Source of the DNA: a virus
Length of the DNA: 30,829 nt
Virus record (IMG/VR): IMGVR_UViG_3300021960_000325
Coordinates: 1 to 30,829 of that record
Strand: one strand, 5' to 3'
Shown: piece after piece, positions 990-3,017 of the stretch
Numbering within the stretch: the stretch's first letter is position 1
How the letters are laid out: every line of letters begins with the position of its first letter
The notes under the pieces: model-generated
Seen by the model: the letters and a program-made list of their open reading frames with translations, nothing else
Told to the model about the DNA's origin: nothing
Database searches by the model: none
Program-made: the position numbers and the translations under genes

Positions 990-1007
990 TTTGTGCATAC
1001 CTGATAT

Positions 1008-1015
1008 GCTAAATA
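1008..1015 (+). promoter_or_regulatory. Late promoter box GCTAAATA feeding the riboswitch
   Basis: The TAAATA core of the late box is intact. The implied start at +6 from the box is base 1021, which is exactly the first base of the riboswitch aptamer. This agreement is the main support, since the first two bases of the box are not consensus. Confidence 0.5.
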
Positions 1016-1020
1016 TGTAT

Positions 1021-1070
1021 ATCGTTCGTACACTAGTATGGAAGTAGGCACAATGCCGAAGGAACGCACC
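1021..1070 (+). promoter_or_regulatory. Glutamine riboswitch (glnA / Downstream-peptide class aptamer)
   Basis: The core matches the glutamine aptamer as I know it: CGTTC near the 5' end, GGAAGTAGG in the middle and CGAAGGAACGC at the 3' end. P1 forms between CGUUC (1023-1027) and GAACG (1062-1066). P2 is a small hairpin GUAC-ACUA-GUAU (1028-1039). P3 is GGCA-CAA-UGCC (1047-1057). The Downstream-peptide subclass is known upstream of very short genes in cyanobacteria, cyanophages and marine metagenomes, which matches the 64-aa gene starting at 1100. The 3' end of the aptamer (CACC, 1067-1070) can pair with GGTG just after the GGAGG ribosome site, which suggests control of translation. The ligand is inferred from the family. 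Confidence 0.85.
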
Positions 1071-1084
1071 TAACTTTAACTTAT

Positions 1085-1092
1085 AAGGAGGG
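1085..1092 (+). promoter_or_regulatory. Strong ribosome binding site AAGGAGGG under the riboswitch
   Basis: This near-perfect Shine-Dalgarno sequence lies 8 nt before the ATG at 1100. Bases 1091-1094 (GGTG) can pair with CACC at the end of the aptamer, so the site may be masked or freed according to ligand state. Confidence 0.7.
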
Positions 1093-1099
1093 TGGCTAA

Positions 1100-1294
1100 A
1101 TGGATAGACATTCATTCATGCTCAAGCAGTACGCAGAGCAACAAACACGCAAAAAGAAGGAAATGGAGTTGTGGAGATCCCGCAATGAGGTCAACATCAA
1201 CGGTGGTGGTACTTCTGGTTACGTGGTAAAAAATGGTCCAAACACTGGACGCATACTTGGACATAACAGTCCTAAATCTACTAACAATTGGTAG
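1100..1294 (+). CDS. Riboswitch-controlled 64-aa downstream peptide
   Basis: A 64-aa basic protein directly downstream of the glutamine riboswitch. The N-terminal half is helical and rich in Gln, Lys and Arg (MLKQYAEQQTRKKKEMELW). The C-terminal half is Gly/Asn/Ser-rich and probably disordered (NGGGTSGY, NTGRILGHNSPKSTNNW). The genetic position is the one described for the short proteins after Downstream-peptide RNAs, whose role is not settled as far as I know. A role in adjusting host nitrogen or glutamine metabolism is inference from the switch alone. A GC-rich hairpin follows 15 nt after the stop. Confidence 0.85.
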   Translation: MDRHSFMLKQYAEQQTRKKKEMELWRSRNEVNINGGGTSGYVVKNGPNTGRILGHNSPKSTNNW

Positions 1295-1309: not shown

Positions 1310-1329
1310 TCGGGGGTTTCGGCCCCCGA
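1310..1329 (+). terminator. GC-rich hairpin after the riboswitch-controlled gene
   Basis: TCGGGGG pairs with CCCCCGA around a TTTCGG loop, a very stable 7-bp stem in an AT-rich genome. It is preceded by the short palindrome CTCTTAAGAG (1296-1305). There is no T-run after it; instead the next late box overlaps its last two bases. It may stop transcription, protect the 3' end of the mRNA, or both. Confidence 0.6.
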
Positions 1330-2459: not shown

Positions 2460-3017
2460 ATGGAAGACAATTACGCTGGTAAATTGCTTATTGCACAACC
2501 AAATGCCAACAGCACGTTTTTTGAAAAAACTGTTATATTGGTGTGCGAGCATAACGAATCAAAGGGTGCTTGGGGCGTTATAGTAAACAAACCTTCTCCA
2601 ATACCATTAAGAATGGTATCCGAATCTGTTAATTTAGATATTGACATGGGTGAAGATTCTTCGTTTGTTGGCGGTCCAGTTGATACGCACAGCATTAACA
2701 TACTGCATTCGAATGAAGTTGAATTTCCTAACACCCTGCAGGTAACTCCAGATCTAAGTATTACAAGCAGTCTTGAATTAATGGAACTGATTGGTCATGG
2801 TAGAGGTCCACAAAAGTGGAGATGCATACTAGGTATATCAGGTTGGGGTCCAGGACAACTGGAAGGTGAAATGAGTGGTATGCACCCATGGACAACTCAG
2901 CACGAATGGTTAACCATGGATGCTCCTAAAGATTTGTTAACAAAGGGATTGCCTAGTTTATGGCAATGGTGCATTACCGAATCTATTGGAACTATTGCTT
3001 CCAAGTATCTAAACTAG
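2460..3017 (+). CDS. AlgH / YqgE family protein (UPF0301, DUF179)
   Basis: A 185-aa protein of about the full family length. It shows the family signatures: GKLLIAQPNANSTFFEKTVI near the N-terminus, VCEHNESKGAWGVIVNKPSP, the SSFVGGPVD block, and LGISGWGPGQLEGEM, followed by a C-terminal helical region. AlgH/YqgE is a widespread bacterial protein whose biochemical role is unresolved; the name comes from alginate regulation in Pseudomonas. Presence in a phage suggests modification of a host process late in infection, since it sits directly behind a late box. There is no ribosome site and the start appears leaderless. The 3' end overlaps the opposing 71-aa gene by 4 bp. Confidence 0.9.
   Translation: MEDNYAGKLLIAQPNANSTFFEKTVILVCEHNESKGAWGVIVNKPSPIPLRMVSESVNLDIDMGEDSSFVGGPVDTHSINILHSNEVEFPNTLQVTPDLSITSSLELMELIGHGRGPQKWRCILGISGWGPGQLEGEMSGMHPWTTQHEWLTMDAPKDLLTKGLPSLWQWCITESIGTIASKYLN

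Follow-up and report, generated by a model that had tools for sequence, protein, structure and literature searches.

A glutamine-I aptamer at the predicted start of a T4-type late transcript in a marine virus

Introduction

Riboswitches of phages have so far been noted only in passing. Glutamine-I aptamers are listed for cyanophages (PMC9964418), and glutamine riboswitches were already reported in the phages Melnitz and Mosig (PMC9004378), both marine T4-like myophages carrying the same aptamer class as the element described here. A survey of pelagimyophages found no riboswitches, and late promoters could not be defined in it (PMC7029224). The known switches of the glutamine-I family (Rfam RF01739) control gifB, glnA or amt, and glutamine riboswitches of types 1 and 2 both switch expression on (PMC6316151). 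In glutamine-I RNAs, ligand binding inserts G23 opposite C60, and this linchpin pair at the base of P1 exists only with the ligand (PMC11477058).

The late promoters of phage T4 carry a box about one helical turn upstream of the transcription start, and Aeromonas phage Aeh1 uses a/gC at positions -13/-12 of this element (PMC2988020). We found no description of a fusion between an aptamer and a late promoter in the literature searched; an earlier mention may exist elsewhere. The Melnitz paper alone in that literature mentions both a glutamine riboswitch and a late promoter, and its accessible text does not connect the two (PMC9004378).

Results

The window analyzed here is the whole 30,829-nt virus record IMGVR_UViG_3300021960_000325 (positions 1-30,829). 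It encodes T4-like replication genes (gp41-type helicase, UvsW, UvsX, UvsY and primase). A nucleotide search of the window against phage records gave no match, and no gp55 gene was found in this 30.8-kb fragment. Based on gene content and homologues, the host is probably a heterotrophic marine bacterium, SAR11-like; a cyanophage is not indicated. The features of the locus are collected in Table 1.

Table 1. Positions of the promoter, aptamer and gene features in the window.
Feature	Position	Strand	Remark
Conserved short dyad GCATA-CCTGA-TATGC	995-1009	+	abuts and overlaps the late box; from alignment
Late-promoter box GCTAAATA, Aeh1-like variant of the T4 late box	1008-1015	+	
Predicted transcription start (+1), aptamer base 1	1021	+	box at -13 to -6
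Glutamine-I (glnA) aptamer, RF01739	1021-1070	+	46.3 bits (gathering score 35); E 2.9e-7 for the whole window
P1	1023-1027/1062-1066	+	forms
P2	1028-1031/1036-1039	+	forms
P3	1047-1050/1054-1057	+	forms
Equivalents of linchpin G23 and C60	G1041, C1067	+	mapped by hand
Predicted expression platform: 1067-1071 with 1090-1094, 1074-1076 with 1085-1087	1067-1094	+	would close the ribosome site
Shine-Dalgarno (SD) AAGGAGG	1085-1091	+	
64-aa small protein gene, pelagiphage small-protein family phrog_32989	1100-1294	+	E 8.9e-11
G+C-rich hairpin TCGGGGG-TTTCGG-CCCCCGA after the gene	1310-1329	+	possible transcript end

An earlier note on this DNA had recognized the core and the three stems of a glutamine aptamer, and the covariance search bears this out. 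RF01739 is the sole Rfam family above threshold in the window and is matched over its full length (model positions 1-53 of 53), with P1, P2 and P3 joined in a three-way junction around the conserved GGAAGUA / GAAGGAACGC core; the GGAAGTAGG and CGAAGGAACGC cores both lie within the aptamer. The Downstream-peptide model RF01704, which that note had also proposed to scan, did not reach its threshold anywhere in the window. The glutamine RNA stands as one of glnA type, not of Downstream-peptide type, and the homologues point away from a cyanophage. RF01704 (glutamine-II) likewise puts an aptamer for glutamine in front of a very small gene, but with a pseudoknot architecture that the present aptamer does not share. 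Compared by eye across loci, P3 shows compensatory variants (GGC/GCC, GAC/GUC, AGC/GCU, GCA/UGC) and P1 of Mosig is CGUUU/AAACG, another such variant, while the ligand-site nucleotides are intact. The window's copy has the stems, the conserved core and the place before a ribosome site of the known RF01739 switches, and differs from them in preceding a small phage protein and in lying at the +1 of a predicted phage late promoter.

The box GCTAAATA is two mismatches away from the T4 consensus TATAAATA. It shares with the T4 and Aeh1 late promoters an 8-bp element about one turn before +1 and the lack of a -35 element, and has the RCTAAATA form of Aeh1; unlike theirs, the transcript predicted from it opens with a metabolite aptamer. 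Since the box carries the Aeh1-type a/gC at -13/-12, and so extends from -13 to -6, the start falls on the first base of the aptamer, as had been claimed from the first reading. This +1 rule is independently supported in the same lineage. In contigs of the window's lineage and of phages whose gp41 helicase is related, the ATG of a reading frame of 36 codons or more falls exactly at +1 for 16 of 98 late boxes, vs 2 of 820 A/T-matched control motifs. The window itself holds 10 late-box matches (NATAAATA or RCTAAATA); as a plain count, each of them has an ORF start 0-79 nt downstream. Allowing one mismatch, TATAAATA shows no excess in the window as a whole (75 matches vs 99.7 expected), so only the tests at gene starts and in the aptamer register are informative. 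An NtcA-type box is absent in the window and so does not enter the explanation of this leader.

Late boxes with an ATG at the predicted +1 occur in the window at 1328-1341, 2447-2460 and 28245 (minus strand), and also at L040, L088, L134, L135, L138, L306 and L307; such boxes predict leaderless late mRNAs. One of them sets at +1 the ATG of an AlgH-like (DUF179) protein encoded at 2460-3017 of the window (Pfam E 2.6e-32). At the place of the dyad, other lineages have longer hairpins or clear terminators, and terminator-like hairpins directly abut the late box at L055, L046, L110, L117, L256 and L261, which results in compact terminator, late promoter and aptamer units.

The arrangement recurs. 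An aptamer pattern search in IMG/VR returned at least 120 loci, and the register was counted in 63 non-redundant, non-tandem loci among the matches listed: in 32 of them TAAATA has its first base at -13 to -10 relative to aptamer base 1, vs a mean of 0.66 and a maximum of 6 in dinucleotide shuffles. A second search used protein alignment only, blind to the aptamer and to promoter DNA. Among the matches listed, the aptamer was present in 36 of the 44 close homologues with readable upstream DNA, and of the 30 distinct leaders 29 showed TAAATA at -13 to -10, the remaining one having it at -14 (shuffles: mean 0.42, maximum 4). In bacterial genomes with the same aptamer, taken as a negative control, TAAATA was in register in only 1 of the 68 cases among the matches listed. 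Related sequences are not independent; the bacterial control and the one-per-type comparison given below address this kinship. What stays constant across the leaders is TAAATA with TA or RC in front of it, the pattern of late promoters. On sequence comparison, we consider it well supported that the RNA is a glutamine aptamer placed at the +1 of a late promoter of T4 type. None of the 26 distant homologues of the 64-aa protein among the matches listed had the aptamer, which indicates that glutamine control is not needed for the basic function of the protein.

Other arrangements were met in the same searches. Tandem glutamine aptamers stand directly before small phage genes (L003, L006, L033, L037, L062 and others). 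A GTAN8TAC (NtcA-like) box is found at -37/-36 in 18 of the 63 aptamer loci among the matches listed (L001, L057, L060, L064, L068, L082 and others), and several of these loci precede small YRG-type proteins resembling DUF4278, the one checked being just below the Pfam cutoff; these loci suggest cyanophages that combine NtcA-like and glutamine control. Glutamine-I aptamers, often in tandem, were also present in genomes labelled marine Alphaproteobacteria, SAR86 and SAR92 (L309-L427), in contrast with a review that calls glutamine riboswitches restricted to cyanobacteria. These bacterial copies lie upstream of Amt-, GlnA- and GltB-like genes, as named by eye.

The 64-aa gene is real, as judged from its conserved family. 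The protein has an N-terminal helix and a conserved C-terminal NGTSGY..KSTNNW, and residues R3, G37, Y41, K44, G46 and N48 are invariant in the family. In the AlphaFold model only the N-terminal helix is confident (pLDDT 71, pTM 0.36), and a flexible tail is predicted. Pfam gave no significant domain and a PDB sequence search nothing significant. With the window's own protein, tblastn at 1e-5 found no match; a relative used as query at a looser limit matched the pelagiphage family. Among GenBank phages this family is nearly confined to those of Pelagibacter, which span several morphologies. Its phrog_32989 members in HTVC019P, HTVC011P, Kolga and HTVC008M are homologous and often near late or packaging genes, but are shorter (52-54 aa); the HTVC008M homologue is unannotated and lies between a DNA end protector and a baseplate gene. 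RF01739 had no match in six phrog_32989 pelagiphages searched whole. The hairpin after the window's gene overlaps the next late box at 1328 and lacks a T run, so that it stands outside the terminator list.

The claim that the end of the aptamer can pair near the ribosome site of this gene also held: the two short helices of Table 1 enclose the SD. Among the matches listed, tail-SD pairing is possible in most loci, with lineage-specific sequences (CACC/GGUG, CAUC/GAUG, CACUU/AAGUG, CUUUAC/GUAAAG and others). The mean energy of each tail with its own SD was -8.96 kcal/mol vs -6.88 when swapped, and none of 10,000 permutations was as good; with one representative per tail type (n=17) the values were -5.08 and -3.42, with none of 20,000 permutations as good. 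By these comparisons, the predicted tail-SD helix covaries.

Relatives give further information on lateness. The 185-kb relative G024 carries the same cassette together with a gp55-like late sigma factor (phrog_234, E 6.8e-24), and its replication genes are homologous to those of the window (UvsW 67%, gp41 66% identical). Contigs related to HTVC008M carry the cassette between gp5 hub/lysozyme and the gp25/gp6/gp8 baseplate wedge genes, in a late module and on the strand of these genes; in another placement it is beside Hsp20, peroxiredoxin and gp45. For the window's own lineage, no recognizable virion genes were identified next to the cassette, and lateness there rests on the box. The cultured Pelagibacter (SAR11) phage Mosig has one aptamer with CATAAATA before it in the same register, followed by a 51-aa gene; this layout goes beyond the description in the accessible text of PMC9004378, which mentions neither a late-promoter register nor a tail-SD helix and attributes the element of Melnitz to the tmRNA. 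In Melnitz (MZ577097; L122 2574-3150) the aptamer is 3' of the tmRNA and is followed immediately by an SD and a 32-aa ORF that lacks annotation; the leader of this ORF has the same tail-SD pairing. Control of this 32-aa ORF by the Melnitz aptamer appears more likely than the published control of ssrA.

Discussion

We propose that a gp55-like sigma factor would read the box at 1008-1015, so that the mRNA would begin at 1021 and carry the glutamine-I aptamer as its 5' end. Without glutamine, the tail starting at C1067 would pair with the SD region and limit translation of the 64-aa gene. With glutamine bound, P1 would be stabilized and C1067 drawn into the linchpin pair with G1041, which would weaken the tail-SD helix and turn translation on. 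The small late protein would thus be made in proportion to the glutamine, and hence nitrogen, supply of the infected cell. We give this whole mechanism, from late promoter to glutamine ON switch, a probability of roughly 0.55. Its aptamer, box, register, covarying tail-SD helix and conserved gene are supported by the comparisons above; from them we infer glutamine binding, late timing, the ON direction and the purpose. For nitrogen status to be read during virion assembly, the RNA would have to bind glutamine in vivo and be produced late.

The direction of the switch is where the main rival lies. In the window the tail-SD helix shares no bases with P1, and a nearest-neighbour model lets both form together; the SD is unpaired at 0.24-0.26 with or without P1, and at 0.37 when C1067 is withheld. 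This energy model does not force P1 and the tail-SD helix to exclude each other, so that the switch rests on the linchpin argument and an OFF switch stays a real rival, although we regard it as unlikely. With the same RNA and promoter, the bound P1 would stack on the immediately adjacent tail-SD hairpin and stabilize it, and glutamine would stop translation. In host-type bacteria, moreover, the aptamer precedes Amt, GlnA and GltB-like genes, for which repression by glutamine is expected. However, the characterized glutamine riboswitches are ON switches (PMC6316151), the ligand-bound linchpin takes C60, which is the first base of the tail-SD helix (C1067), and in several lineages (L016, L036, L050, L070) this helix extends into the P1 strand. 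Since the helix begins at the very base that the ligand recruits, and the known switches activate, the ON switch is favoured.

It is less plausible still that a real aptamer is transcribed from an ordinary sigma-70 or middle promoter and is not specifically late. In favour of this reading, a T4 late box sits at the place of a -10 element, TTGACA precedes TAAATA by 17 nt in L233/L049, and overlapping early and late promoters have been suggested for the middle genes of cyanophages (PMC2984593). Nevertheless, the alignment of the family leaders has no conserved -35 element, no sigma-70-like site was found on the plus strand around the window's leader, the late-promoter-like TAAATA with TA or RC before it is invariant, and the same boxes have the ATG-at-+1 pattern. 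Finally, it is very improbable that the aptamer mainly protects late mRNA as a structured 5' end and gives the phage no effective response to glutamine. In these leaders the aptamer is always the 5'-terminal element, and the affinity of its class is only millimolar (PMC6698751), but a mere cap would need neither a ligand site kept intact while the stems compensate nor a covarying tail-SD helix.

Our analysis yields a concrete rule for late promoters and shows that a module of promoter, aptamer and small gene recurs, a cultured SAR11 phage among its carriers. Beyond the window, we suggest tentatively, as a possibility somewhat short of even, that several T4-like lineages on heterotrophic marine bacteria gate late small proteins by host glutamine, through a standard module of late promoter, +1 aptamer and SD-closing helix, and so read nitrogen status late in infection. 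If true, this module would directly link phage late gene expression to the nitrogen state of the host. Late sensing of host metabolites by phages becomes a directly testable question, and Mosig, with the same layout, is a ready test system.
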